This document shows positions 5,768-61,291 of a stretch of 64,000 nucleotides of DNA, piece by piece. The notes below the pieces were generated by a model. It did no database searches. It was not told the DNA's origin and saw nothing but the letters and a program-made list of their open reading frames with translations. The position numbers and the translations under genes were made by a program. This DNA is from a candidate division WOR-3 bacterium. GTDB taxonomy: Bacteria; Hydrothermota; Tepidihabitantia; SM23-42; JAOAFX01. Every line of letters starts with the position of its first letter. Position 1 is the stretch's first letter. The stretch spans positions 62,001 through 126,000 of the forward strand of contig JBDRVV010000002.1 of NCBI GenBank assembly GCA_039802005.1. The letters run 5' to 3'.

Positions 5768-5795
5768 TTGACATTTAGCCCTAAATATATATAAT
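5768..5795 (+). promoter_or_regulatory. trkA promoter
   Basis: TTGACA 5768-5773, 16-bp spacer, TATAAT 5790-5795: a perfect consensus. It predicts a leader of about 100 nt before the trkA ATG. The leader contains a strong inverted repeat, so post-initiation control is possible. Confidence 0.75.
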
Positions 5796-42662: not shown

Positions 42663-44981
42663 TTATTTCACCAGAACAATCTTTTGCTTTTTTATACCGT
42701 CAGGCAAGTTAAAGAATAGATAATAGATCCCCTGGGGCATTTTTGCCATTGAAATTGACTCTCTATGTTCACCTTTTGCGTAGAATTTTTCATTGGTATA
42801 AACGCAGGCACCTAAAATATTATAGATTTTGATCTCTACCTTGCCTGATTTATTAAGATTTAGTGCATAATCAACACAATTATGTGTCAAAATAGACGTA
42901 TTGAAGAGATTTTTCACCTTTATTTCCGAAGGTCCTGTATTCTCAGCAATTCCGATCTGGAGGTTTGAAACATCACCGGTAATCACAAGTGCGTAAGGTT
43001 GCCTTGCTCCAGTCGGCACATTTCTGCCCACAACCCAGGCAGTCCAGACACCGGTAGCGGGTGAATTAAGCCGGAAATTCTCTTCAACATTTAAGGTATC
43101 CCGGCTTCCGCCCGTTGCCGACTGGCCACCAGAATAGACATTGCCCCAGTAATATGTCCCTGAAGGACTTCTTACCCTGAGGTCAAGGTTATTTACAATG
43201 GCACGTGCGGCACTTGTGTTTCCGGCGCTATCAGTCCAGCACAGAGTTACTCTCAAAGGAACGGAAGAACTATTGACTTGCCATTGATAGACGACACTAT
43301 CACCTGTATCAAGACCCCCTGATGCAGAATCATGGAGAAGCAATTTTTTTGATTCGCCAGTGAAGTATAATACGCTATCAAGGTCAATTCTACCCCAGCC
43401 GATATTGTAATTCGGAACTGTGTAACCGGAAATATTATTATCTGCTGATATTACCGCCATCGCCTTCAAGAGTGCAGCCGATGGATTGGCAATTGCATTA
43501 CCAGGCACTTCGGAACCGGTTGGATAAAAACCACGGTTAAGATATTCTCTTATCAAACCGACCGCGCCACAGGCAGATGGTGATGCCATGCTCGTTCCTG
43601 ACATCTGCCAGTAACTACTACTGGAACCTGATGTTCCACCACTTGCCGAATACAAACCAGGATCTCCTGTGGTATTCAATCCACCAGGTGCCATTACTGT
43701 TGGTTTATAACGATTATCATCTGTTGGTCCTCTTGAGGAATAAGATGCTATCGTCGTCGGAGAAACCCTGCCAACTGCGCCGATTGTCAATGCATTTTTA
43801 GCGTTCCCAGGGCTACCTGTGGTATTTGCACCCGAACCAGAATTTCCTGCTGAAATGACCAACAAACAGGTTTTTCTACGCCACATAAACTGATCTGCCT
43901 GTGCATCATAACTATAGTAAGCACCACCTGTAGAGGCACCCCAGGAATTAGATACAACCCGAGCACCATAGGCATAACTTGTATCCCAGAGTTGGTTTAA
44001 ATCCGACCAGATGCTTAAGCCACCCGAATATCCAATATCGCAAAAAGAAAGTTTCGCGAGTTTAGCGATACCGTCATAGATGGATGTACCACCATTATAT
44101 GAGTCATCTCCACATACTGTGCAGCCGGTGTGTGAACCATGCCAGTAGTTTGATGACTCATCGCCAAATGTCGCAGAACTTCCACCTCGACTGTAATTTA
44201 CAATCTTTCTATGGCTTGGGTAGCTTCCCCAGGTTGTTATCGGATATGTTGAATGATAGAATGCCCAATGGGCAGTCGTAATACCGGAGTCGGTTGTACC
44301 AAGTATCTGCCCCTGTCCTTTGATACCCTTTGCCCAGATTGTCGTGTCTCCAACCGAACCACACTGAACAATACGTGTTGAATTATTGTTATGCAACTGA
44401 ATCTCAGGCCGTGGTTCGATCCAGTAAACTCCTTTAATATTTGCTATAGTCTCTACCTGGTTAGCACCTATTTCAGCAACAATCAGTTTACTTACAACTT
44501 CCGATATATCAAGAATCCGTGCTCCAGTGTTATTAATTCTTGCGGCTATTTCGGTCAGGTCTTCGGTATCAAAGACCATAATTGTTACCTTCTGTAAACC
44601 AGTAATAACGCGCAAATCAGGATGTATCTTATAAGCAGGATGCCACAAACCTATCCAGTTGATAAATGACTTCTGATTTATCATTTGCTTCTGAATCTTA
44701 TCCATACGCACAATATATGCATAATCAGGGAGATAACCTATTACCTGTGCACCGATATTTTTCAACTCTTGTTTCCATTCTTTTAAGATCGGACCTTTAA
44801 ATTGAATAATATAGTAGTTCCAATCCTCTTCCTGTGCGATAAGATTATTGGCTATTATTGGTTCACCATTCCTCGGGTCAAACTGATATGTCTTCAAACA
44901 AATCATCTGACCCCGAACCAACACTACAGAAAACAAAACCATCAACACTATAAAGTGTTTATTGCTTTTTAATAACACCAT
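42663..44981 (-). CDS. Secreted subtilisin-like serine protease (S8) with type IX sorting tail
   Basis: A 772-residue protein. A signal peptide (VLMVLFSVVLVRGQ) is followed by an N-terminal propeptide-like region and an S8 catalytic domain: Asp in LGTTDSGITTAHWAF, His in SSNYWHGSHTGCTVCGDDS, the Asn oxyanion in VISAGNSGSGANTTG, and Ser in MSGTSMASPSACGAVGLI. A beta-sandwich P-domain-like section then comes (about 540-670). A sorting tail follows, IGIAENTGPSEIKVKNLFN to PQGIYYLFFNLPDG and KIVLVK. It is likely exported, and degrades proteins at the surface. Ribosome site AAAGGAG. The TGCTVCGDD near the His is unusual, with two Cys that might form a disulfide. Confidence 0.93.
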   Translation of the reverse strand: MVLLKSNKHFIVLMVLFSVVLVRGQMICLKTYQFDPRNGEPIIANNLIAQEEDWNYYIIQFKGPILKEWKQELKNIGAQVIGYLPDYAYIVRMDKIQKQMINQKSFINWIGLWHPAYKIHPDLRVITGLQKVTIMVFDTEDLTEIAARINNTGARILDISEVVSKLIVAEIGANQVETIANIKGVYWIEPRPEIQLHNNNSTRIVQCGSVGDTTIWAKGIKGQGQILGTTDSGITTAHWAFYHSTYPITTWGSYPSHRKIVNYSRGGSSATFGDESSNYWHGSHTGCTVCGDDSYNGGTSIYDGIAKLAKLSFCDIGYSGGLSIWSDLNQLWDTSYAYGARVVSNSWGASTGGAYYSYDAQADQFMWRRKTCLLVISAGNSGSGANTTGSPGNAKNALTIGAVGRVSPTTIASYSSRGPTDDNRYKPTVMAPGGLNTTGDPGLYSASGGTSGSSSSYWQMSGTSMASPSACGAVGLIREYLNRGFYPTGSEVPGNAIANPSAALLKAMAVISADNNISGYTVPNYNIGWGRIDLDSVLYFTGESKKLLLHDSASGGLDTGDSVVYQWQVNSSSVPLRVTLCWTDSAGNTSAARAIVNNLDLRVRSPSGTYYWGNVYSGGQSATGGSRDTLNVEENFRLNSPATGVWTAWVVGRNVPTGARQPYALVITGDVSNLQIGIAENTGPSEIKVKNLFNTSILTHNCVDYALNLNKSGKVEIKIYNILGACVYTNEKFYAKGEHRESISMAKMPQGIYYLFFNLPDGIKKQKIVLVK

Positions 44982-45152: not shown

Positions 45153-46754
45153 TTATTTTATAATCACTAATTTTTCGGACTTAACCCTTTTTCCGCAGTG
45201 ATAAATTTCTACGAAATAAATGCCTGGTGTATTTAGTTCAACATTCTTTTTAGTTTGCTGTAGTATTAATCTTCCGGAGATATCAAAAATCTTTATTTTA
45301 AAATTTAAAAGATTTGTTTTTATCGAAAAATTTCCTTTGCTCGGGTTTGGAAATTCAAAGAATATTGATTCATCATTGTTATTTTCAGCCACACATTGGC
45401 TCATTGTATTTAAGAACAGAAAATTTCCCCTGGTCTGGTGCCAGTTGGTAACAAGCAAATCAAGATTCTTTGAATATGTATAATCAACCCATATAGTTTC
45501 TGGTTGAGTAATGATATTTGCAATTGATACCCAGCCATCAGTATATGAAAAGCAATATTGGTTTCTGTTCAAATCACCACTTGCTCTTCTCACCCTTGTG
45601 ATATTCTTTATCCATCGTTTATTGAGATAAAAAACCCGTTTTGCAGGTGTAACAATATGCGGTTCATTTGTGATTGATACAGGTTGTGTATTATCAACAT
45701 CACCAAAAATAATATTTTCACAAACAAGTTGATAAGGATTTGATGGACTCCATTGCCAGGATGGAGTCTGGGGAAATGTTCCATTTGTATTTTCAAAGAC
45801 CTTTACCGATTCCCACCAGCCACCAGCGGCAAGGTCTAAATCATTATCTTGATCAACATCACCTAATGCAACACAGGAATAATATGTGAGATTCTGGCTT
45901 GTCCAAGCAGGGGTAGTTGATAGGTTTGAACCATTGTTTAGGTATAGTTGAACATTGCTCTGACCCCCGAGTTGCCCATTATTGGCACAGACCATATCAA
46001 GGTCACCATCATTATCAACATCGCCGAATGCAAGTTTCAAAGTATTCAAGGAATTTGCTGACTGCCAGTAAGGTGTTGATTCCAGCATTCCATTGGTATT
46101 GCGGTATATCAAATTTGGTCCGAGCTCTGCCACAAGACCGAGGTCTAAATCACCGTCATTGTCAATATCAACCCAGGAAACATCATAAAAATAGGAAGCG
46201 ATATTTGACTGCCAGACAGGGAGTGTATCTAAAATTCCATTATTATTTAAATACACCTTCGCCTTCTGGGCACTATCACCATAAGACTCACCACAGGCAA
46301 CAGCAAGGTCTAAATCACCATCTCCATCCATATCTCCAAACGCACAGGAAAATGAATTATCAAGGTCATGGGGCCTCCAGGAAGAAATTGATTGAAAAGT
46401 TCCCGATTGATTATAATAGAATTTGTCATATTGCGGGGTATAAGGATCGCCATAATTTGCCACAACAAGATCAGGATAACCATCATAATTTATATCTCCC
46501 AAACTGATATGTGCATTATATCCCACATCTGAAGACTGCCATCCTGCAACATGCTGGAGTGTATCATTATAATTATAGTTCACTTTATTTCTATTCTGTG
46601 CCATATCATTACCATTGCCACTAACAAAATCAATATCACCATCAAGGTCAACATCAACCAATGCACCGCCCGTTGAATAGTCTGTATCCGTTGATTCCCA
46701 GTTTGGTTGATTTGGATAGGGAATGATTGATAGGATAAAAATCACAAAAAACAT
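45153..46754 (-). CDS. Secreted FG-GAP/VCBS repeat protein with type IX sorting tail
   Basis: A 533-residue protein with a signal peptide (MFFVIFILSIIPY) and FG-GAP/VCBS blades with calcium-binding loops: DVDLDGDIDFVSGNG, DINYDGYPDLVVAN, DMDGDGDLDLAVAC, DIDNDGDLDLGLVA, DVDNDGDLDMVCAN and DVDQDNDLDLAAGG. This should fold as a beta-propeller. A sorting tail (GNFSIKTNLLNFKIKIFDISG ... TPGIYFVEIYHCGK ... LVIIK) ends it. It has AAGGAGG before the ATG and only a poor promoter match upstream. The D-x-D-x-D-G-D loops strongly suggest calcium dependence. Similar in type to the 31775-34198 protein but shorter. Confidence 0.9.
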   Translation of the reverse strand: MFFVIFILSIIPYPNQPNWESTDTDYSTGGALVDVDLDGDIDFVSGNGNDMAQNRNKVNYNYNDTLQHVAGWQSSDVGYNAHISLGDINYDGYPDLVVANYGDPYTPQYDKFYYNQSGTFQSISSWRPHDLDNSFSCAFGDMDGDGDLDLAVACGESYGDSAQKAKVYLNNNGILDTLPVWQSNIASYFYDVSWVDIDNDGDLDLGLVAELGPNLIYRNTNGMLESTPYWQSANSLNTLKLAFGDVDNDGDLDMVCANNGQLGGQSNVQLYLNNGSNLSTTPAWTSQNLTYYSCVALGDVDQDNDLDLAAGGWWESVKVFENTNGTFPQTPSWQWSPSNPYQLVCENIIFGDVDNTQPVSITNEPHIVTPAKRVFYLNKRWIKNITRVRRASGDLNRNQYCFSYTDGWVSIANIITQPETIWVDYTYSKNLDLLVTNWHQTRGNFLFLNTMSQCVAENNNDESIFFEFPNPSKGNFSIKTNLLNFKIKIFDISGRLILQQTKKNVELNTPGIYFVEIYHCGKRVKSEKLVIIK

Positions 46755-48898: not shown

Positions 48899-49804
48899 AT
48901 GAAAATTGGGATAATTGTTCCTGCCTATAACGAAGTTGAAAACATACCGCATCTCGTCTCAATGTTTGATGAATTCATCAAAAAACACAGAGATTATGAG
49001 GTCATTTTCATTGATGATGGCTCAACCGATTCTACCCAGAAAGTATTAGAAGAATACAAGAGAGATTATCTAAAAATAGCAAGGCATAAAAGAAATTTAG
49101 GTAAAACCCAAGCAATAATAACCGGGGCAAAAACAACCAATGCTGAGATTCTGGTGATTTATGATGCAGATATGCAGTTTGATATTTATGATGTGCCTAA
49201 ATTGGTAGATCTGATTTTAAACCAGAATGCAGATGTGGCTACCGGTTGGAAACAGGGAAAATATGAAAAGAAATTTGTCTCAAGTGTTTATAACTGGTGT
49301 GGGAGAAAACTATTCCATTTAAAAGTCCATGATATGAATGCAATAAAGGCATTCAGACGCGAAGTCATAGAAACAATTCCTATGCGCAAAGACTGGCACC
49401 GTTATATAGTTCCCCTGGCGAGTGAATATGGATTCGTCATTAAAGAAATCCCTGTGTCCTTAAAACCAAGGTTATATGGTGCACCGAAATATCAGAAAAA
49501 GGTAAGAATTATTATTGGATTTTTTGACCTTCTTGCAGTGAAATTCCAGTTAACATTTCTCCAGAAGCCTTTATTATATTTTGGAACTGCCGGAATGTTT
49601 CAAATACTCTTGGGAATTATAGTCGGTATCATTGCAATAATCCTTAGACTCTTAGGACATGGATTCAGACCTTTATTATATCTCGTCATACTCCTCATTG
49701 TCTCGGGAGTCCTGTTCTTTTCGTTAGGACTGATTGGTGAGTCAATAAGAGCGATAATTGACCGTTTAGAAAAGTTTGATTCCCTGAATAGAAATAAGAC
49801 TTAA
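48899..49804 (+). CDS. GT2 polyprenyl-phosphate sugar transferase-like
   Basis: A 301-residue GT-A glycosyltransferase of the DPM1/GtrB type. It has the IIVPAYNEVENIPHLV N-terminus, FIDDGSTDSTQKVLE, and the metal-binding motif IYDADMQFDIYDVPKL (DAD, about residues 92-94). The C-terminus has two membrane segments (about 230-292). Such enzymes move a sugar from a nucleotide sugar onto undecaprenyl or dolichyl phosphate. It heads an operon with a flippase-like protein, ugd and a UDP-sugar decarboxylase-like gene, so it probably builds lipid-linked sugar for glycan or lipid modification. Confidence 0.92.
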   Translation: MKIGIIVPAYNEVENIPHLVSMFDEFIKKHRDYEVIFIDDGSTDSTQKVLEEYKRDYLKIARHKRNLGKTQAIITGAKTTNAEILVIYDADMQFDIYDVPKLVDLILNQNADVATGWKQGKYEKKFVSSVYNWCGRKLFHLKVHDMNAIKAFRREVIETIPMRKDWHRYIVPLASEYGFVIKEIPVSLKPRLYGAPKYQKKVRIIIGFFDLLAVKFQLTFLQKPLLYFGTAGMFQILLGIIVGIIAIILRLLGHGFRPLLYLVILLIVSGVLFFSLGLIGESIRAIIDRLEKFDSLNRNKT

Positions 49805-50787
49805 TGAAAAAAGACTCAATAATGGAAGAAAAAAAGAAAAGTAAATTTACATTTCTCTGGTCAGTCTTAAGGATTTTAATAGGCATTGGACTAATCACAT
49901 TCTTGCTCATAAAACTTGATATTGAAAAAATTCTATTAAATTTAAAAAACCTTGAGATAAGATTTCTGGCTTATGCACTTATCCCCTACTTTTTTTTCAT
50001 TGTTGTTTCTGCCTGGCGCTGGCAGGTTCTGCTTGATTATAAAAAAATGAATATTCCGTTCAAAGATTCTCTACTGATATATTTTATTGCCCTCTTTTTT
50101 AATAACTTTCTGCCCACCACTGTTGGTGGGGATGTTATGAGGGTTGTTTACTCAATGAGGGAGAAAAAGACCGATGCCTTTGCGATTGTGATTGCCGATA
50201 GAATCCTTGGATTTATCGGTCTTTTTATCTTCGGATTATTCGCTGTAGTCTATCTCTATATTTTCCAGAAAAGAAGCGAATTTGTATCACTGATGATAAT
50301 CGGGCTCCTAACACTTCTATTTATCACATTTATACTCTTTTCGGAAAAGGTTTATTCGTTTATTCATCCAGTTATTGCTAAATTGAAATTTTTTCACATT
50401 GGTGAAAGGATAAACAATCTCCATAAAACAATGACCGAATTTGGTTCTGCCTGGGGTGTGATAATTCTTTGTATTATACAATCAATGATTATCCAGGCAC
50501 TCCTTGCCGTATCTCCTTATCTTGTTTTAAAGAGCATGGGTAATTACCAGGTCTCCATACTCCCTTTCTTTATATATCTGCCCATAATAAATGTCATTTC
50601 AATGATACCGATATCATTCAATGCCCTGGGTGTTCGGGAAAATGCCTATGTGATATTATTTCAACGCACCGGATTGAGTGGTGAAGTTTCTCTTACCGTC
50701 TCACTTGTTTCATTCTTTTTGACATTTTTATGGTCTCTGGTGGGTGGAATATTTTTTATTTTTTACAAAAAACCCTCAAATGTTTAG
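49804..50787 (+). CDS. UPF0104/lysylphosphatidylglycerol synthase transmembrane-domain protein
   Basis: A 327-residue polytopic membrane protein with family signatures SAWRWQVLL, FFNNFLPTTVGGDVMRVVYS and PISFNALGVRENAYVILFQRTGLS. It is related to the flippase half of MprF and to AglD-like proteins. In glycan operons it is thought to flip lipid-linked sugars. The ATG overlaps the GT2 stop by one base (TAATG), so the pair is cotranslated. No LPG synthase (aminoacyl transferase) domain is present. Confidence 0.88.
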   Translation: MKKDSIMEEKKKSKFTFLWSVLRILIGIGLITFLLIKLDIEKILLNLKNLEIRFLAYALIPYFFFIVVSAWRWQVLLDYKKMNIPFKDSLLIYFIALFFNNFLPTTVGGDVMRVVYSMREKKTDAFAIVIADRILGFIGLFIFGLFAVVYLYIFQKRSEFVSLMIIGLLTLLFITFILFSEKVYSFIHPVIAKLKFFHIGERINNLHKTMTEFGSAWGVIILCIIQSMIIQALLAVSPYLVLKSMGNYQVSILPFFIYLPIINVISMIPISFNALGVRENAYVILFQRTGLSGEVSLTVSLVSFFLTFLWSLVGGIFFIFYKKPSNV

Positions 50788-50829
50788 GAATTTTGATATT
50801 TTAGATATTTGTTTTCAAAAAGGAGGAAT

Positions 50830-52119
50830 ATGAAGGTTTGTATGATTGGCACTGGTTATGTAGGTTTAGTCTCAGGAACCTGTTTTGCAGAGATTGGACA
50901 TAATGTGGTCTGTGTTGATAATGACATAAAAAAGATTGAAATATTAAAGAATGGAAAGATCCCTATTTATGAGCCCGGACTTCTGGAGATGGTTAAAAAG
51001 AATGTCTCCGAAGGTAGATTAAAATTTACAACTTCAATTTCTGAAGGTGTTCGGGAGTCATTATTTATCTTTATTGCTGTGGGCACACCGCCAAAAGAGA
51101 ATGGAGAACCAGACCTTTCAAGCGTTGAAAAAGTAGCGAGTGAGATTGGTGAAGCCATGGAAGATTACAAAATTGTCGTGGAAAAAAGCACGGTCCCGGT
51201 CCAGACTGGAAAATGGATAAGAACGATTGTTGAAAGATTCAACAAAAGAAAGGTTGCATTTGATGTTGCATCCAATCCTGAATTCTTAAGAGAAGGTTCT
51301 GCCATACAGGATTTTCTCAAGCCCGACAGGGTTGTTCTCGGTGTTGAAAGCGAAAAGGCAAAAGAGCTATTACTGGAACTATATAAGCCGATTGATGCAC
51401 CAAAAATCATTACCGATTTGGCGAGTGCCGAATTAATAAAGCACGCCTCAAATTCCTTTTTATCAATGAAGATTTCATTCATCAATGCCCTTTCAATTAT
51501 CTGTGAATATTCAGGTGCGGATATTTTAAAGGTTGCAGAAGGTATTGGACTTGATAAAAGAATTGGCAGGGATTTTCTCAATGCTGGGGTGGGATTTGGT
51601 GGTTTTTGTTTTCCAAAAGACCTCAAGGCTTTTATCGGCATATCCCAGAAATTGGGTTATGATTTTAGATTATTAAAAGAAGTGGAAAGGATAAACGAAG
51701 AGCAGATGAAGAGGGTTGTCAAAAAACTTGAAGATTTATTATGGAACCTGAGGGATAAAAGGATTGGAATTCTTGGACTTTCATTTAAACCCAACACGGA
51801 TGATATGAGATTTGCACCATCAATTACAATAATAAATGAATTAAAGAAGGAAGGCGCGGTTGTAAAGGCTTACGATCCAGTCGCAATGGAGAGGGCAAAG
51901 GAATTAATGCCTGATATTGAATATTGTAAAGATGCATACGGCGTGGCTGAAAATGCAGATGGAGTGGTGCTGGTTACAGAATGGGACGAATTTAAGAATC
52001 TTGATTTAAAAAAATTGAAAGAAAAGATGCGTCAGCCGGTTTTCCTTGATGGCAGAAATATCTTTGACCCGCAGGAAATGAGAAAGATAGGTTTTATCTA
52101 TGCAGGAATAGGCAGATGA
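50830..52119 (+). CDS. ugd: UDP-glucose 6-dehydrogenase
   Basis: A 429-residue enzyme that oxidises UDP-glucose to UDP-glucuronate. It has the NAD Rossmann start KVCMIGTGYVGLVSGTCFAEIGH, the STVPVQTGKW and NPEFLREGSAIQDFLKPDRVVLG (in parts) segments, and the catalytic Cys in GVGFGGFCFPKDLKAF. The ATG at 50830 has AAGGAGG upstream and is better than an in-frame ATG at 50809. Length is typical. The 4-base overlap with the next gene links it to UDP-xylose formation. Confidence 0.97.
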   Translation: MKVCMIGTGYVGLVSGTCFAEIGHNVVCVDNDIKKIEILKNGKIPIYEPGLLEMVKKNVSEGRLKFTTSISEGVRESLFIFIAVGTPPKENGEPDLSSVEKVASEIGEAMEDYKIVVEKSTVPVQTGKWIRTIVERFNKRKVAFDVASNPEFLREGSAIQDFLKPDRVVLGVESEKAKELLLELYKPIDAPKIITDLASAELIKHASNSFLSMKISFINALSIICEYSGADILKVAEGIGLDKRIGRDFLNAGVGFGGFCFPKDLKAFIGISQKLGYDFRLLKEVERINEEQMKRVVKKLEDLLWNLRDKRIGILGLSFKPNTDDMRFAPSITIINELKKEGAVVKAYDPVAMERAKELMPDIEYCKDAYGVAENADGVVLVTEWDEFKNLDLKKLKEKMRQPVFLDGRNIFDPQEMRKIGFIYAGIGR

Positions 52120-53045
52120 GAGTAATAATTACTGGCGGTGCAGGTTTTATCGGTTCTCACCTTGTAGATTACTATTTAAATAAAGGAAACGAAGTAATCG
52201 CAGTTGATAATTTGATAACCGGCAAAGAAGAAAATATAAAACACAATTTCAAAAATAAAAAATTTCAGTTTCTAAAATGCGATATCTGCGATATGCCGAA
52301 GATAAATAAAGATATAGGACTTATACTCCACTTTGCCTCACCAGCAAGTCCATTTGACTATCTAAAATATCCAATAGAAACAATGAAAACGGCATCTGTT
52401 GGAACTATAAATATGCTTGAACTTGCTTTAAAGAAAAATGCCAAATTCTTCCTTGCCTCAACAAGTGAAGTCTATGGTGACCCATTAATCCATCCCCAGG
52501 TTGAAGAATACTGGGGAAATGTGAATCCCGTTGGAATAAGGTCTGTTTATGATGAAGGAAAGAGATTTGCTGAAGCGATAACTGTTGCCTATCATAGAAA
52601 GTTGAAATTAAAAATAAACATTGTGCGAATATTTAACACCTATGGAGAAAGAATGAGGCCTGGAGATGGCAGGGTGATTCCCACCTTTATTGAACAGGCT
52701 TTAAAGAACGAACCAATGACCATATTCGGAGATGGCAAACAGACGAGAAGTTTCTGCTACATAAGCGACCTCGTTAATGGAATTGTTAAACTTGCTGAGA
52801 GTGATTATCCAATGCCAGTCAATTTAGGTAATCCTAAGGAATTTACAATTTTGGAACTTGCTCAAAAAATAAAGAAATTGTGTAATAGTAAAAGTGAATT
52901 CATTTATAAACCACTACCAGAAGATGACCCTCATAGAAGAAATCCTGATATCACCAAAGCGAAAAAACTTCTAAATTGGAAACCAGTTGTGGAGCTTGAT
53001 GAAGGGCTTAGAAGAGTAATAGAGTGGTTCAAAGAAAAGATATAA
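52116..53045 (+). CDS. NAD-dependent sugar epimerase/decarboxylase, UDP-glucuronate decarboxylase-like
   Basis: A 309-residue short-chain dehydrogenase/reductase. It has the TGGAGFIGSHLVDYYL nucleotide site, FLASTSEVYGDP (catalytic Ser/Thr) and the SVYDEGKRFAE Tyr-x3-Lys motif. The FNTYGERMRPGDGRVIPTFI and FCYISDLVNGIVKLAES segments are close to UDP-xylose synthase (Uxs), a natural partner of Ugd. It overlaps ugd by 4 bases (ATGA). UDP-xylose would be the expected product; other epimerases of this family are not excluded. Confidence 0.88.
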   Translation: MRVIITGGAGFIGSHLVDYYLNKGNEVIAVDNLITGKEENIKHNFKNKKFQFLKCDICDMPKINKDIGLILHFASPASPFDYLKYPIETMKTASVGTINMLELALKKNAKFFLASTSEVYGDPLIHPQVEEYWGNVNPVGIRSVYDEGKRFAEAITVAYHRKLKLKINIVRIFNTYGERMRPGDGRVIPTFIEQALKNEPMTIFGDGKQTRSFCYISDLVNGIVKLAESDYPMPVNLGNPKEFTILELAQKIKKLCNSKSEFIYKPLPEDDPHRRNPDITKAKKLLNWKPVVELDEGLRRVIEWFKEKI

Positions 53046-53067: not shown

Positions 53068-53095
53068 TTGACAGGAATATTTTTTAGAATATAAT
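53068..53095 (+). promoter_or_regulatory. Promoter of the substrate-binding/TonB fusion gene
   Basis: TTGACA 53068-53073, 16-bp spacer, TATAAT 53090-53095, with a leader of about 50 nt and a GGGGG ribosome site before the ATG at 53152. Confidence 0.75.
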
Positions 53096-53151: not shown

Positions 53152-55236
53152 ATGAAAAAATTATGGTTAATATTAATCGTCATTGGTCTGATTGTTTATT
53201 GTGCAAAAAAAGAAGAACCATTAAAGGGTGAGAAGGGTGGGACACTCGTCATCGGGACAACAGACATCCCTTCTGTTATTTCACCTCTACAACCCTCTGT
53301 TTTAGGTTCAAACGACATTCTTGAACTATTATTTATGAGACTCCACAGAATTGACCCGCATACTGGAAAGATGAAACCGGAATTGGCATCCTCATGGGAA
53401 TTTTCAGAGGATTTGACCTCTATTACTTATTATCTTAGAAAGGATATAAAATGGTGGGATGGAGAACCGGTGACTGCTGAAGATGTCCTTTACACCTATG
53501 AAAAGATGCAGGATCCAAAAACAAATTATCCCTTCATTGCCTCTCTAAAATATATCAAAAAAGCAGAACTGGTAGATAAGTATACTATAAAATTCACATT
53601 CACCCAGGTCTATGCAAATCTCCTTACTGATTCAGATATAATGCCTGTACCCAAACATATTTATGAAAAATTCGGTGCAGAATTTGGTAAAACAAAGATC
53701 GTGGGCAACGGACCTTATAAAGTAAAAGAATGGATCCCCAATGCAGGTTTAACACTCACCGCCAACGAAAATTACTATCGTGGCAGACCACCTCTTGATG
53801 AAATTGTAATTAAATTTTACAACAATGTAGAAACAATGATTACTGACTTTGAGCAAGGTAATATAGATCTCGCCCTCAATCTAACACCGTCTGACGCTAA
53901 AAAATTCTCCAACAATAAAAATATAAATATTTTTTCTAAACCAGGAAATAGTTACATTTATATCGGCTGGAATCTGGAAAATGAATTTCTGAAGGATAAA
54001 GAAATACGCAAGGCATTGACAATGGCTATAAATAAAACCCAGATACTGAATGATGTTTTATTAGGAATGGGGCAGGTTTCACTCGGACCATTACCACAAT
54101 CATCCTGGGCATTTAATGAGAATGTATCACCTGTAGAATTTAATCCTGCCAAGGCTAAAGATATTCTTTTAAATAAAGGCTTTGAAGATCGCAATCGCAA
54201 TAAAATACTTGATAAAAACGGAAAAGACATTACCCTGACCATTATCACCAATGTTGAAAATCCGGAAAGAGTTCAAATTCTAAATTTTGTTGCCAACTAT
54301 TTATCGCAACTTGGGATAAAAGTGAATGCGCAGACAATGGATGTGACTTCCTTCATTTCTGCACTCCTCAATCGTAAATATGATGGATTTATTATGGGTT
54401 GGAGTGTTGGTGATAAGATTGACCCAACATTATACTGGCATTCTGACCCCAACCGTGGAAAGTTTAATTTCGTGAATTATAGAAATCCAGCGGTAGATTC
54501 ACTTATAGATATCGGCACTCTAATGTTGGATAGAAGAAAAGCAAAAGAAATCTGGGGTGAATTCCAAAAGAGAGTTTATGAAGACCAACCCTATACCTTC
54601 CTTGTGGTTCCCAATGAAATCGCTGCAAATTATAAAAGAGTAAAAGGTACAGATGAAGGTATCGCACTCGCCAGTGCCTATACCTACTGGATACCTGAAG
54701 CAGAAAGAAGAGTCACAATCGCTGCCAAAGTTACACCGACGACAACACCGACCACACCTACACCCACAACTACTTCTACAATAACTCCTGTAACACCTAC
54801 TCCTGTAACACCTACTACTCCCACTCCTACCACCACCAAGAAAGAAGAAACCCCGAAACCAACACCTGCAGTTTCTCCGGAAAAACTCTTAGAAGCCGCT
54901 GCGGCTTCAAAAGAAACAACCGTGGTAGCCCCTCCTCCGCCACCGACAACACCACCAAAACCATCAGTAATAACAAGACCCGAGCCGATAAAAAAAGTTT
55001 TACCTAAATATCCTGATGCAGCAAGGGCAATAGGTGCTACTGGTAAGGTTGTAGTAAAAGTCGTTGTTGGTACAGATGGAAAAGTCAAATCGGCAACAAT
55101 CTTTTCCAGTTTTGGCAATCCCGCCTGTGAAGATGCAGCAATTGCGGCAGCAAAACAATGGGAATTCAAACCAGCGACCAAAGACGGTGAACCATTTGAG
55201 CAGAGCATCCAGATACCGTTTGACTTTAAACCATAG
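53152..55236 (+). CDS. Peptide-binding lipoprotein (SBP family 5) fused to a TonB C-terminal domain
   Basis: A 694-residue single ORF. Residues 1-17 form a lipoprotein signal (LIVIGLIVYC, Cys17). Residues about 25-522 are a complete family-5 oligopeptide/nickel-binding domain (RLHRIDPHTGKMKPELASSW; TYYLRKDIKWWDGEPVTAEDVLYTYE in parts; GNGPYKVKEW; DKEIRKALTMAINK; YDGFIMGWSVGDKIDP). A Thr/Pro-rich linker runs about 525-610. Residues about 610-694 are a TonB C-terminal domain (VLPKYPDAARAIGATGKVVV; ACEDAAIAAAKQWEFKPA). No ABC permease or ATPase is adjacent. Family 5 domains normally feed an ABC importer and TonB domains engage outer-membrane receptors, so this protein may couple the two; a TonB receptor is 3.5 kb downstream. 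Confidence 0.9.
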   Translation: MKKLWLILIVIGLIVYCAKKEEPLKGEKGGTLVIGTTDIPSVISPLQPSVLGSNDILELLFMRLHRIDPHTGKMKPELASSWEFSEDLTSITYYLRKDIKWWDGEPVTAEDVLYTYEKMQDPKTNYPFIASLKYIKKAELVDKYTIKFTFTQVYANLLTDSDIMPVPKHIYEKFGAEFGKTKIVGNGPYKVKEWIPNAGLTLTANENYYRGRPPLDEIVIKFYNNVETMITDFEQGNIDLALNLTPSDAKKFSNNKNINIFSKPGNSYIYIGWNLENEFLKDKEIRKALTMAINKTQILNDVLLGMGQVSLGPLPQSSWAFNENVSPVEFNPAKAKDILLNKGFEDRNRNKILDKNGKDITLTIITNVENPERVQILNFVANYLSQLGIKVNAQTMDVTSFISALLNRKYDGFIMGWSVGDKIDPTLYWHSDPNRGKFNFVNYRNPAVDSLIDIGTLMLDRRKAKEIWGEFQKRVYEDQPYTFLVVPNEIAANYKRVKGTDEGIALASAYTYWIPEAERRVTIAAKVTPTTTPTTPTPTTTSTITPVTPTPVTPTTPTPTTTKKEETPKPTPAVSPEKLLEAAAASKETTVVAPPPPPTTPPKPSVITRPEPIKKVLPKYPDAARAIGATGKVVVKVVVGTDGKVKSATIFSSFGNPACEDAAIAAAKQWEFKPATKDGEPFEQSIQIPFDFKP

Positions 55237-55253: not shown

Positions 55254-55281
55254 TTGACAATAGAAAGAATATAAATATAAT
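55254..55281 (+). promoter_or_regulatory. Promoter of the 55385 gene
   Basis: TTGACA 55254-55259, 16-bp spacer, TATAAT 55276-55281. The leader of about 100 nt has an ATG at 55300 with an AGGAAG site that opens a 44-codon frame overlapping the true start, and a GGGTT/AACCC hairpin; either may modulate translation. Confidence 0.7.
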
Positions 55282-55384: not shown

Positions 55385-56473
55385 ATGAAAAAATTAATCG
55401 TGATATTTTTTGTTTTCTTGATTGCCTTTGCTGAATGGCAGCAGCGTGAAGAGTTAACACTGCCAAAAGGAATTCAAATTACTGATGTCAAAGTTGACAT
55501 TGACGGCAGTGTATGGATTTTAACGAAATCTTCAATTTCACAGGTTGATTTCGCTAAGAAAAGTCTAAATCTTTTCTCTGAGATAAAAGAAGGCGAACTA
55601 TTAGCGGTTTGCAACGAATATTTTTATATAATTGACAACTTCCATAAGCTCTTAACTCTCTCATCAGAAGGTGAAGCATCCGCCTCTTCACTAAACTTAT
55701 TCAATCCCATTCAAATTGAAGCAGTGAAGGTGGGAAGAAAAAATATACTCGCCATTGCGGAACCCAATCGTATAATCTTTATTGATGGAAATGAAATAAT
55801 AAATAATCTAATTGCTAATGTTGAAAAATTTTCTGTTGTCACAAAGATTAATGAAAAAACCGAATTCGTCATTTACTCAATGCATAATAATCAGATTTAT
55901 ACCTGGACTGCGAGCGATTTAAAGAATACGACAGGATTCAAAAATCGGCTGTTTTATAGTGCATCTGAAAAAATCATTGATTTTACGACCGGGATTGACG
56001 GGAAAAATTACATTTTGTTTAAAGACTCAATATTAATTTTAAAACCCAATGGAGAACCTGAAGATAAAATTCTAATGGAAAATATTACTCCTGATTCAAA
56101 GATTTATGCATATCCTAATGATAATAGTTTGCTTTTATTTAATCCGAACGAAAAAATATTAAAAATTCTATCCCGTCCTAAACAACAGAAAAGTGAAATT
56201 ATGAGCTTAAATAAAAATCGACCGAATCCTGTTGACAATTATACTGAATTTGAATTTACCCTGAATGAACCAATGTATATCACATTTACAATTTATAACC
56301 TCATTGGGAAACCTGTTAAGGTGCTCGCAAGTGGTTTTTATAATAAAGGTACACATACCATACCCTGGCATGCAGATGATGAAAAGGGTGCACTCGTGCC
56401 CAATGGTGTATATTTTTACCGACTGGAAGCGAAAAAGGGTGTTTTGATAAAACAGTTGATTGTTTTAAGATAA
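55385..56473 (+). CDS. Secreted protein with type IX sorting tail
   Basis: A 362-residue protein with a signal peptide (MKKLIVIFFVFLIAFAEW) and an N-terminal region with beta-propeller-like blades (DIDGSVWILTKSSISQVDF; GIDGKNYILFKDSILILK). A C-terminal domain of about 80 residues has the FlgD-like/sorting pattern NRPNPVDNYTEFEFTLNEPMYITFTIYNLIGKPVK (in parts), VPNGVYFYRLEAKKG and LIVLR. It has an AAGGGGGT ribosome site. It is downstream of the peptide-binding/TonB fusion but has its own promoter. Function unknown; export to the surface by the type IX system is expected. Confidence 0.85.
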   Translation: MKKLIVIFFVFLIAFAEWQQREELTLPKGIQITDVKVDIDGSVWILTKSSISQVDFAKKSLNLFSEIKEGELLAVCNEYFYIIDNFHKLLTLSSEGEASASSLNLFNPIQIEAVKVGRKNILAIAEPNRIIFIDGNEIINNLIANVEKFSVVTKINEKTEFVIYSMHNNQIYTWTASDLKNTTGFKNRLFYSASEKIIDFTTGIDGKNYILFKDSILILKPNGEPEDKILMENITPDSKIYAYPNDNSLLLFNPNEKILKILSRPKQQKSEIMSLNKNRPNPVDNYTEFEFTLNEPMYITFTIYNLIGKPVKVLASGFYNKGTHTIPWHADDEKGALVPNGVYFYRLEAKKGVLIKQLIVLR

Positions 56474-58689: not shown

Positions 58690-61080
58690 TCAATAGAGTT
58701 CTAAACCTAACCCCAACCTGATGCGGAATGGATTCGCATAATGGAGTGGATTTGTAAAATAATCATACCTTGCCTTCAAATATTCATCGCGCATTTCCAC
58801 CGGTGTGATGAGTCCATCATGGTTATGGTCGCTTTGTGGAGAATAATATGAACTTGAAATTGAAAGCCAGCCAAACTGACCAATTGGTGGCTCAGGGTCT
58901 CCATGGTCATCCGGTTTTCCCGTGGTTGGATAAACATAAACAATCTGCTTTGTATTAAAAAGATTGTTTATCAGCAAGTTGAAAGACAAACAGACAGGGC
59001 CAATCTTAAATTTTTTTAGATATTTCATATCCACATTATTATTTGCCGGCATGCGCGCCGAATTTATATCACCAACGGGTCGTCCTCTTAAATCCTCTGG
59101 TGTATAAGGCAATCCCGAATAAAAAGAGTAGAAAAGAGAAAATGTAGAATTATTCAGAAGGGCATGGAAGTCCTTCGGAATATTAAAAATTAAAAAACTC
59201 TTTAAACTATGCCGGCAATCATAATTTAACGGATGATATTTCTTTTCATAATTGATTGGTTCACCAGTTATTGGGTCATTTCCTTCGTAGTAATAGTAAT
59301 AATAATTATAATCATAAACCGGCATCTGTTCGGTAAATTGGAGGTTATAACTCAATCCGATGGACAACCACTGACCGAATAATTTTTCAAGATTCATCTC
59401 CCATCCTTTGGCCTCTGCCTTATCTATGTAGGTAAATGTATATGTATATAAGTAGTTCCACGGATAATAATTATAATACTCCACTTTTTGAATGTACAAA
59501 TCAACCATATATTTTTGATAGAGGTTACTTGTTATCAATATATTGGATATAGGATTCAATCTGCAACCCATTTCAAAAATTCTTGTCTTTGCCGGTTCAC
59601 ACCTTCCGGTATATCCTGCGGGTTCATAATGGAATTCACCACCATTAAAGAAAATATCTAATTTTTTGGTTACCGGTAATACCAATCCTATTCTTGGTGA
59701 GATGAAGTTCTTTTTTAGTGTAAAAACAGTATCATCACCCGGCAACTCAAATTCCAAAGGTTGATAAAGCCCGTAATTAAAATGGCTATATCTTATTCCC
59801 GCACAAATACCAATCCTTTCTGTTATCCATTTATCTTCAAGATAGACTGATATTGCACTCGGGGTGCGTTCATAGTAATTCCATAAAGATTGGGTAAACC
59901 AGGGCAATGGATTACTGTAATAATTGAATTCATTCCAGGCAAAATCCATTCCCCATTTGATTTCATTTTGATTACCAGTAAAATATTTCATTTTTAAAAA
60001 TAATTGCTGAACCGTTGAATTACAATAACACCATGCAGGATAGTCGCCATAGGTGTAAAAAATTTCCCTAACACCATAGGGATTATAACGCAGCGATTTT
60101 TCACTGCGCTTATCCCCTTCTTGGTGATATTTTGTTAAACTATCGCGAATGACAACAGATGGAGATAGTTGATTATTCTTTAAATACGCGATAAGATGTT
60201 CTGCCTTCAGGCGATAATCATTATACCATTGATAACCATTATTCTCTTCCCATTCATAATCACGATTACCAAATACACTATCAACCATTGTTATGAGATA
60301 CTTTATTGATGATACCATTTTCTTACCCAGCAAGAAATCACCGGTAATAATTATTGATTTTCCCTTTTCCCGGACCATTGGTTTTTGCAGAAAATACTTA
60401 TAAGCATTGGCGCCAATGATATTGGGATGCCAGAGAATTCTCTGGTCACGGAATGTATAACCCTGCACAGAAAGACTATTGCCACCATTACCCGAATAGG
60501 TCAAACCAACCAAACCATTATAACAGTTACCGGATGAAAAAACCCGGTAAAATCCGGGTGATGATACATCGGTGTAGACCGCATTTCCAGAAAGGAAATA
60601 GCATAAGTTATCCTTTATCCTACCCTGACCATCTATACCATATTGGTTGTATCCAAAGTTCAGCCTTTCAAAAGGGACAAAATCATCCGTCAGATATTCT
60701 ACATTCATTGACTTTTTCTTTAATTTCTTCGTCTTAATATGTATAATCCCACCAAACCCAGCACCATATTCCGCAGAAAACCCCGATTTCTGGATTTCAA
60801 TCTTTTCAATCGCATTTAAATTTATATATTCAGGTTCGGCAAAGGAAACACCATCAAGATAATACGCAATTTCGCTCTCACCAATGCTTCCACGCAGATG
60901 GAAGGTTTTGTAATCTCGGTTCACACCCGGGACAAGCATCAAAAGTTCTCCAAGATTACTTACTGGTAGATTCTTAATTTGATCAGCATTAATCACATAC
61001 ACATTAGTGAAGACAGAGTCATAAGTGTTATATGGATTTTGGAAAAATAATATAATTACAGTAAAATAAGTGTAACCCAT
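58690..61080 (-). CDS. TonB-dependent outer-membrane receptor
   Basis: A 796-residue receptor. A signal peptide (MGYTYFTVIILFF) leads into a plug domain (VINADQIKNLPVSNLGELLMLVPG; FHLRGSIGESEIAYYLDGVSF; IEKIEIQKSGFSAEYGAGFGGIIHIKT) at about residues 30-135. An aromatic-rich 22-strand-type barrel follows, ending RIRLGLGLELY with a terminal aromatic residue. The ATG at 61080 has AAGGGAG upstream; the in-frame ATG at 61131 overlaps the -35 box. It takes up unknown large substrates when energised by TonB. No carboxypeptidase-like N-terminal domain or clear TonB box is seen. Confidence 0.88.
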   Translation of the reverse strand: MGYTYFTVIILFFQNPYNTYDSVFTNVYVINADQIKNLPVSNLGELLMLVPGVNRDYKTFHLRGSIGESEIAYYLDGVSFAEPEYINLNAIEKIEIQKSGFSAEYGAGFGGIIHIKTKKLKKKSMNVEYLTDDFVPFERLNFGYNQYGIDGQGRIKDNLCYFLSGNAVYTDVSSPGFYRVFSSGNCYNGLVGLTYSGNGGNSLSVQGYTFRDQRILWHPNIIGANAYKYFLQKPMVREKGKSIIITGDFLLGKKMVSSIKYLITMVDSVFGNRDYEWEENNGYQWYNDYRLKAEHLIAYLKNNQLSPSVVIRDSLTKYHQEGDKRSEKSLRYNPYGVREIFYTYGDYPAWCYCNSTVQQLFLKMKYFTGNQNEIKWGMDFAWNEFNYYSNPLPWFTQSLWNYYERTPSAISVYLEDKWITERIGICAGIRYSHFNYGLYQPLEFELPGDDTVFTLKKNFISPRIGLVLPVTKKLDIFFNGGEFHYEPAGYTGRCEPAKTRIFEMGCRLNPISNILITSNLYQKYMVDLYIQKVEYYNYYPWNYLYTYTFTYIDKAEAKGWEMNLEKLFGQWLSIGLSYNLQFTEQMPVYDYNYYYYYYEGNDPITGEPINYEKKYHPLNYDCRHSLKSFLIFNIPKDFHALLNNSTFSLFYSFYSGLPYTPEDLRGRPVGDINSARMPANNNVDMKYLKKFKIGPVCLSFNLLINNLFNTKQIVYVYPTTGKPDDHGDPEPPIGQFGWLSISSSYYSPQSDHNHDGLITPVEMRDEYLKARYDYFTNPLHYANPFRIRLGLGLELY

Positions 61081-61103
61081 AATACTCCCTTCTATACACA
61101 ATA

Positions 61104-61131
61104 AGTATACAAAAAATTTCTTTTCAGTCAA
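61104..61131 (-). promoter_or_regulatory. TonB receptor gene promoter
   Basis: Minus strand: TTGACT (61131-61126), 16-bp spacer, TATACT (61109-61104), with a leader of about 16 nt carrying AAGGGAG. Confidence 0.7.
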
Positions 61132-61263: not shown

Positions 61264-61291
61264 TTGACAAAATTGAATATGTAATTATAAT
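61264..61291 (+). promoter_or_regulatory. Promoter of the 61299 gene (leaderless)
   Basis: TTGACA 61264-61269, 16-bp spacer, TATAAT 61286-61291, then 7 bases to the ATG at 61299. Confidence 0.8.

Follow-up and report, generated by a model that had tools for sequence, protein, structure and literature searches.

To our knowledge, the TonB C-terminal domain (TonB_C) is nearly always taken to mark the end of an energised transducer in the inner membrane, and proteins that carry it are labelled 'TonB' by automatic annotation. TonB combines a motor-binding transmembrane helix with a Pro-rich disordered linker and a C-terminal TonB_C (PF03544, TIGR01352). Family-5 solute-binding lipoproteins such as AppA, OppA, DppA and NikZ have a lipobox followed by an SBP_bac_5 domain. 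Domains of this family also serve outside ABC import, as in SgrR, where a family-5 binding protein is used as a sensor domain. TonB_C likewise occurs outside canonical TonB, since the outer-membrane receptor MxcH has a TonB_C-like N-terminus. The membrane helix of TonB needs an SHLS-type motif for the motor (PMC12204202), and right behind the helix lies a Pro-flanked strand, the D-box, for ExbD (PMC10907165). In the SusD-SusC and BtuG-BtuB systems, a ligand-binding lipoprotein cooperates with a TonB-dependent receptor (PMC10404256).

We analyzed a stretch of 64,000 nucleotides (hereafter the window) from a candidate division WOR-3 bacterium in which one gene joins a family-5 binding domain to TonB_C. 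This fusion shares with TonB its Pro-rich disordered linker and C-terminal TonB_C, but where TonB has the motor-binding helix, the SHLS motif and the membrane-proximal D-box, it bears a lipid anchor and a folded binding domain. It shares the lipobox and SBP_bac_5 with AppA, OppA, DppA and NikZ, but adds TonB_C, lies in an operon without an Opp/Dpp permease or ATPase and belongs to a genome without a detectable DppB-type permease. As in SgrR and in the sensors that we term MCP-SBP5, which the window genome also encodes, SBP_bac_5 is joined to a non-transport module; unlike the cytoplasmic MCP-SBP5 proteins, the fusion is exported and lipid-anchored, and its module is TonB_C. In MxcH the domain belongs to a receptor and in the fusion to a periplasmic binding protein, and whereas SusD and BtuG sit on the outside of their receptors, the TonB_C tail of the fusion implies contact from the periplasmic side. 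The openly accessible literature that we searched contained no paper that names SBP_bac_5 and TonB_C together or describes this architecture. Each domain is familiar; it is for their combination in one lipoprotein, kept across much of a phylum, that we found no earlier description there.

A single reading frame joins a family-5 binding domain to TonB_C

The gene occupies positions 53152-55236 (+) of the window as one ORF of 694 aa without an internal stop, and comprises the following features:

53152-53202, + strand: lipoprotein signal peptide ending in the lipid-carrying Cys17 (codon 53200-53202)
53221-54726, + strand: family-5 solute-binding domain, residues ~24-525
54727-54966, + strand: Thr/Pro-rich disordered linker, residues ~526-605 (pLDDT < 50 over 531-572 and 587-604)
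54877-54912, + strand: short conserved helix within the linker, PEKLLEAA motif, residues 576-587
54967-55233, + strand: TonB C-terminal domain, residues 606-694 (pLDDT ~90)

Two Pfam matches cleared the cut-off by a wide margin, SBP_bac_5 at residues 73-431 (E 9.8e-85) and TonB_C (PF03544) at residues 618-693 (E 4.1e-21). TIGR01352 also matched the C-terminus (E 2.4e-18), as did the NCBIfam model for MxcH (NF038079) at residues 610-693. An AlphaFold2 model built from a 39-row orthologue alignment (pLDDT 85.8), which supersedes a 22-row model with a pLDDT of 72, predicted order until approximately residue 525, disorder over 531-604 interrupted by a helix at 576-587, and order again over 606-694. 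The initial annotation had described one uninterrupted frame that joins a binding protein, a Thr/Pro-rich linker and TonB_C, and the ORF, the Pfam matches and the model all bear this out.

The binding domain of the model folds like AppA (1xoc, E 1.7e-46), its best structural match, and like NikZ (4oet, TM(target) 0.89); MppA, which binds murein tripeptide, matched as well, albeit not best. AppA holds a nonapeptide and NikZ a Ni-histidine complex, and the ligands of solved family-5 structures range from peptides and opines to nickel chelates, sugars and heme, which leaves the peptide ligand of the initial annotation as one candidate among several. The linker measures 65-108 residues in orthologues, is disordered with 15% Pro, and is long enough to span the periplasm. 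Its helix is recognizable in the orthologue alignment as PExLLEAA, with L580 invariant (39/39) and E577 present in 87%, while the rest of the linker is variable. The helix is likely a docking motif for some partner.

A lipid anchor takes the place of the TonB membrane helix

The lipoprotein signal reads MKKLWLILIVIGLIVY up to the cleavage site before the Cys, and its lipobox (LIVY before C) has an unusual Tyr at position -1, where 34 of 45 orthologues have S, G or A. The Cys itself is invariant (45/45), and the window genome encodes both lipoprotein signal peptidase (signal peptidase II) and LolA. Given that LolA is encoded and that Asp is absent from position +2 in all orthologues, both of which are weak rules, the anchor would be placed in the outer membrane, the inner membrane being less likely.

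We also looked for the features by which TonB engages its motor. Apart from residue 2 in two of the 45 sequences, the signal helix contains no His, leaving it without an SHLS motif. By eye, there was no membrane-proximal D-box, and in the model the first strand of the binding domain begins at residue 31, and the folded domain starts within ~15 residues of the helix. The canonical TonBs of the same genome (L005/L006) possess a helix together with a D-box-like EIVTM segment. The proposal of the initial annotation that a lipid anchor replaces the N-terminal membrane helix of TonB is supported.

The fusion is conserved across the phylum

Our alignment comprised 45 orthologues, each a complete single ORF, drawn from many families of candidate division WOR-3. 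The single-ORF fusion was found in nearly every member of the order, in one genome of the same class (G027, family f3) and, elsewhere in the phylum, in families f11, f12, f16, f20, f21 and f28-f31. Both Pfam domains were present in all 10 of the divergent orthologues that were scanned. Distances for the binding domain and for TonB_C correlated across orthologues (Spearman 0.75). In a tree of 89 TonB_C columns, 19 of the 23 sampled fusion domains formed one clade (98/92), separate from transmembrane-anchored TonBs, while those of f20/f21 and G126 fell outside the main clade, without firm placement. Comparison of the window genome (G000; a draft of 2.54 Mb, 97.6% complete) with G001 gave a pN of 0.095 and a pS of 0.79 for the binding domain, and a pN of 0.049 and a pS of 0.70 for TonB_C. 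Both domains are under purifying selection, which is strongest on TonB_C.

Relatives do not divide the two domains between separate ORFs, as they would if a frameshift had joined two genes in the window; many families encode the fusion as a complete single ORF. G002 has the one split copy, which apparently lies on a contig with a coverage of 3.8 and most likely reflects a sequencing frameshift. Partial copies elsewhere stop at contig edges. Beyond this split copy nothing speaks for an artefact of assembly or frameshift, the chance of which is negligible, and we ruled it out since independent assemblies of 45 species, several of them single-contig, share the identical joint.

Among plasmid records, 3568 matched the binding domain, which stood alone there, and none covered 80% of the query. 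A single-protein scan of species genomes, which reaches close relatives only, returned three records, all from WOR-3. The same architecture may exist outside the phylum.

Family-5 domains in a genome without a detectable Opp/Dpp permease

The fusion has the domain, the fold and the export signal of a family-5 importer component; no Opp/Dpp-type permease was detected. The initial annotation had noted that no ABC permease is adjacent, which is correct, and none of the Opp/Dpp type was detectable elsewhere in the genome either. Six permease ORFs exceeded the PF00528 cut-off in the window genome; four of them form two Pst pairs and the other two a MalFG-like pair. The N-terminal domain of DppB-type permeases (PF19300) scored over the cut-off in none of the 27 genomes of the order, with 11 of 14 controls positive. 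Across the phylum it did so in 7 of 147 genomes, of which only G128 also encodes the fusion, on a different contig. These absences come from family-model searches of mostly draft genomes, several of them single-contig. We considered the permease pair at positions 1065-2832 of the window as a cognate importer and rejected it, as by sequence it is MalF/MalG-like and not Dpp-type. Family-5 ORFs of ~1050 aa, considered as possible fusions of binding protein and permease, proved to be soluble MCP-SBP5 proteins.

The remaining family-5 proteins detected in the window genome all belong to signalling loci or are chemoreceptor-like. One, on contig C21, encodes 1047 aa with MCPsignal and a C-terminal SBP_bac_5, lacks a transmembrane segment, and is directly followed by CheW, CheY, CheA and a CheC-like gene (whole locus L143:5819-11985). 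A similar MCP-like protein of 1070 aa lies on contig C16, and G130 (contig C331, L148) likewise encodes a soluble MCPsignal protein with a C-terminal family-5 domain, directly followed by CheW, CheY and CheA. In these chemoreceptor-like proteins the binding-protein domain apparently serves as a cytoplasmic sensor, and ORFs of ~1050-1140 aa with a family-5 domain recur across the phylum. On contig C8 (L145:9603-15723), two tandem lipoprotein-like family-5 proteins (498 and 491 aa), with no permease, immediately precede the genes of a HAMP histidine kinase, a response regulator and a GGDEF-like protein, and apparently feed this two-component system. Since the other family-5 domains of this genome are tied to signalling, the domain seems to have been released from import and put to other use in this lineage.

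Genomic neighbourhood of the fusion

The following features surround the fusion gene in the window:

48899-49804, + strand: GT2 glycosyltransferase, first gene of the upstream envelope-glycan operon (Glycos_transf_2, E 4.2e-25; conserved upstream in the order)
49804-50787, + strand: flippase-like LPG_synthase_TM membrane protein, envelope-glycan operon (E 1.7e-42)
50809-52119, + strand: UDP-glucose 6-dehydrogenase, envelope-glycan operon (Pfam)
52116-53045, + strand: NAD-dependent epimerase, UDP-glucuronate decarboxylase-like, envelope-glycan operon (Pfam and conserved neighbourhood)
53068-53095, + strand: sigma-70-type promoter TTGACA-N16-TATAAT (12/12 consensus), in the 106-bp gap before the fusion
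58690-61131, - strand: TonB-dependent receptor with a plug domain (Plug, E 1.1e-12), 3.5 kb from the fusion

In most relatives the envelope-glycan operon ends with an MscS channel, which is absent in the window. The position of the fusion behind this operon is kept in families f1 and f2 only, with different neighbours in other families. Most orthologues in the order are likewise preceded by a 12/12 promoter site, at a distance of ~50-61 bp, a score that 0 of 100 shuffles reached; the site is predicted to give the fusion its own transcription unit. Because this consensus promoter is conserved in the order, the fusion is not simply a member of the envelope-glycan operon, and such membership, confined to f1 and f2, was rejected. 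The functional link between the fusion and the glycan operon is weak. Perfect TTGACA...TATAAT promoters are frequent in the window, with 13 in 64 kb compared to 0.18 expected, and include those at 5768-5795, 53068-53095, 55254-55281 and 61264-61291. Their spacer is always exactly 16 bp. The order shows the same pattern, with a 16-bp spacer in 26 of 27 such promoters from f2 loci; the other families of the phylum have hardly any.

The initial annotation had also hinted at the downstream receptor as a partner. The receptor is real and carries a plug domain, but it is not a conserved neighbour. Over 47 loci (772 kb) we found 4-5 plug proteins near the fusion, several of them non-independent, which is close to the ~2 that we estimated by chance from ~7 receptors per 2.5 Mb. 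The downstream receptor is common to the window genome and G002, of the same genus; G005 and G075 also have receptors close to the fusion, and G127 has a weak plug match nearby. The neighbouring receptor was therefore rejected as the partner, and because no receptor is constantly beside the fusion we name none. The window also encodes secreted proteins with T9SS/Por_Secre_tail- or FlgD_ig-like C-termini, assigned by eye only at 42663-44981 and 45153-46754, and from weak Pfam matches at 55385-56473.

The TonB system and other TonB_C lipoproteins

Plug-domain TonB-dependent receptors were detected in all 147 genomes of the phylum, and in the window genome ExbB, ExbD and TonB genes adjoin a receptor on contig C26. 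This genome encodes seven TonB_C proteins, of which three, including the fusion, are lipoproteins without a membrane helix. The other two measure 330 aa (C1:92009; L146:5001-5993) and 256 aa (C16:10112; L144:9974-10744). Relatives likewise encode TonB_C lipoproteins that lack a transmembrane segment (L160, L169, L170 and L037, the last with two TonB_C domains). In L160, TonB_C starts ~25 residues past the Cys. Since this span is too short to cross the periplasm, it suggests that such proteins are outer-membrane lipoproteins whose TonB_C would be a local docking module. Together these proteins may represent a class of TonB_C lipoproteins in the phylum that are motor-free.

Interpretation of the fusion architecture

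The architecture of the fusion is directly observed. As to its mechanism, we tentatively favor a lipid-anchored docking protein that works through TonB_C independently of the motor, and whose binding domain catches or senses a ligand delivered by a receptor. Anchored at the outer membrane, TonB_C would approach a receptor from the periplasm and pair with its Ton-box by strand addition, exerting no pull, and the tethered binding domain, held at the periplasmic mouth of the receptor, would capture or sense the delivered ligand. From there the bound ligand might pass to another importer, or a partner might read it out, perhaps by way of the linker helix, whose invariant Leu580 would offer a contact for that further partner. 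Since TonB_C is conserved and receptors occur in 147/147 genomes, ligand capture combined with receptor contact is the most economical reading. On a broader and still more tentative reading, the lipid-anchored TonB_C proteins as a class could be motor-free docking clips, with the fusion a receptor-docked catcher or sensor that replaces the ABC-linked binding protein in organisms without Opp/Dpp.

The main rival holds that the fusion is a sensor or regulator, in which ligand in the binding domain alters the access of TonB_C to receptors, as a decoy in competition with genuine TonB, or sends a signal via the linker helix, and which would tune receptor activity or the state of the envelope rather than move nutrients. 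This is unlikely, albeit compatible with the signalling context of the other family-5 proteins of the genome (two MCP-like, one of them Che-linked, and the tandem pair beside a histidine kinase), the missing import permease, the conserved linker helix and the separate promoter. No signalling gene lies beside the fusion, however, and conservation of TonB_C is expected equally of a decoy and of a tether. Less probable is a structural role: held by TonB_C to peptidoglycan or to a different envelope component, the protein would stabilise or position something within the cell wall, and its ligand might be a peptide or glycan of that wall. Such a role would suit the f1/f2 gene order behind a conserved envelope-glycan and MscS operon as well as the match to MppA, but the neighbours differ beyond f1/f2, the gene has its own consensus promoter in the order, and the full TonB_C profile is retained at the C-terminus.

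The fusion might instead be an ordinary binding protein of an unrecognised importer, whose permease is of a different type or only distantly related to Dpp, with an incidental TonB_C tail. Its binding-protein fold is typical and the permease absence is a negative from family models; against this, PF00528 yielded just the Pst and MalFG-like pairs in a genome that is 97.6% complete, and no part of the protein is more constrained than the supposedly incidental TonB_C, which is retained across the phylum. We therefore regard this explanation as improbable. More improbable still is a true TonB variant whose helix stays uncleaved and couples to ExbB/ExbD, pulling the receptor while the binding domain awaits the ligand. 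TonB_C is intact, ExbB and ExbD are encoded and the linker could span the periplasm, yet the lipid-carrying Cys is invariant, the SHLS histidine is missing, a binding domain within ~15 residues of the helix leaves no room for a Pro-flanked D-box (PMC10907165), and the canonical TonBs of the same genome do have a helix and the EIVTM segment. Coupling through an uncleaved helix was rejected on account of the missing motor motifs.

If the reading as a lipid-anchored, motor-independent docking protein is true, then recognition of the Ton-box would be usable for docking alone, without a motor. Diderms that lack peptide ABC importers would likewise gain a way to hand over or sense ligands on the inner side of their receptors.
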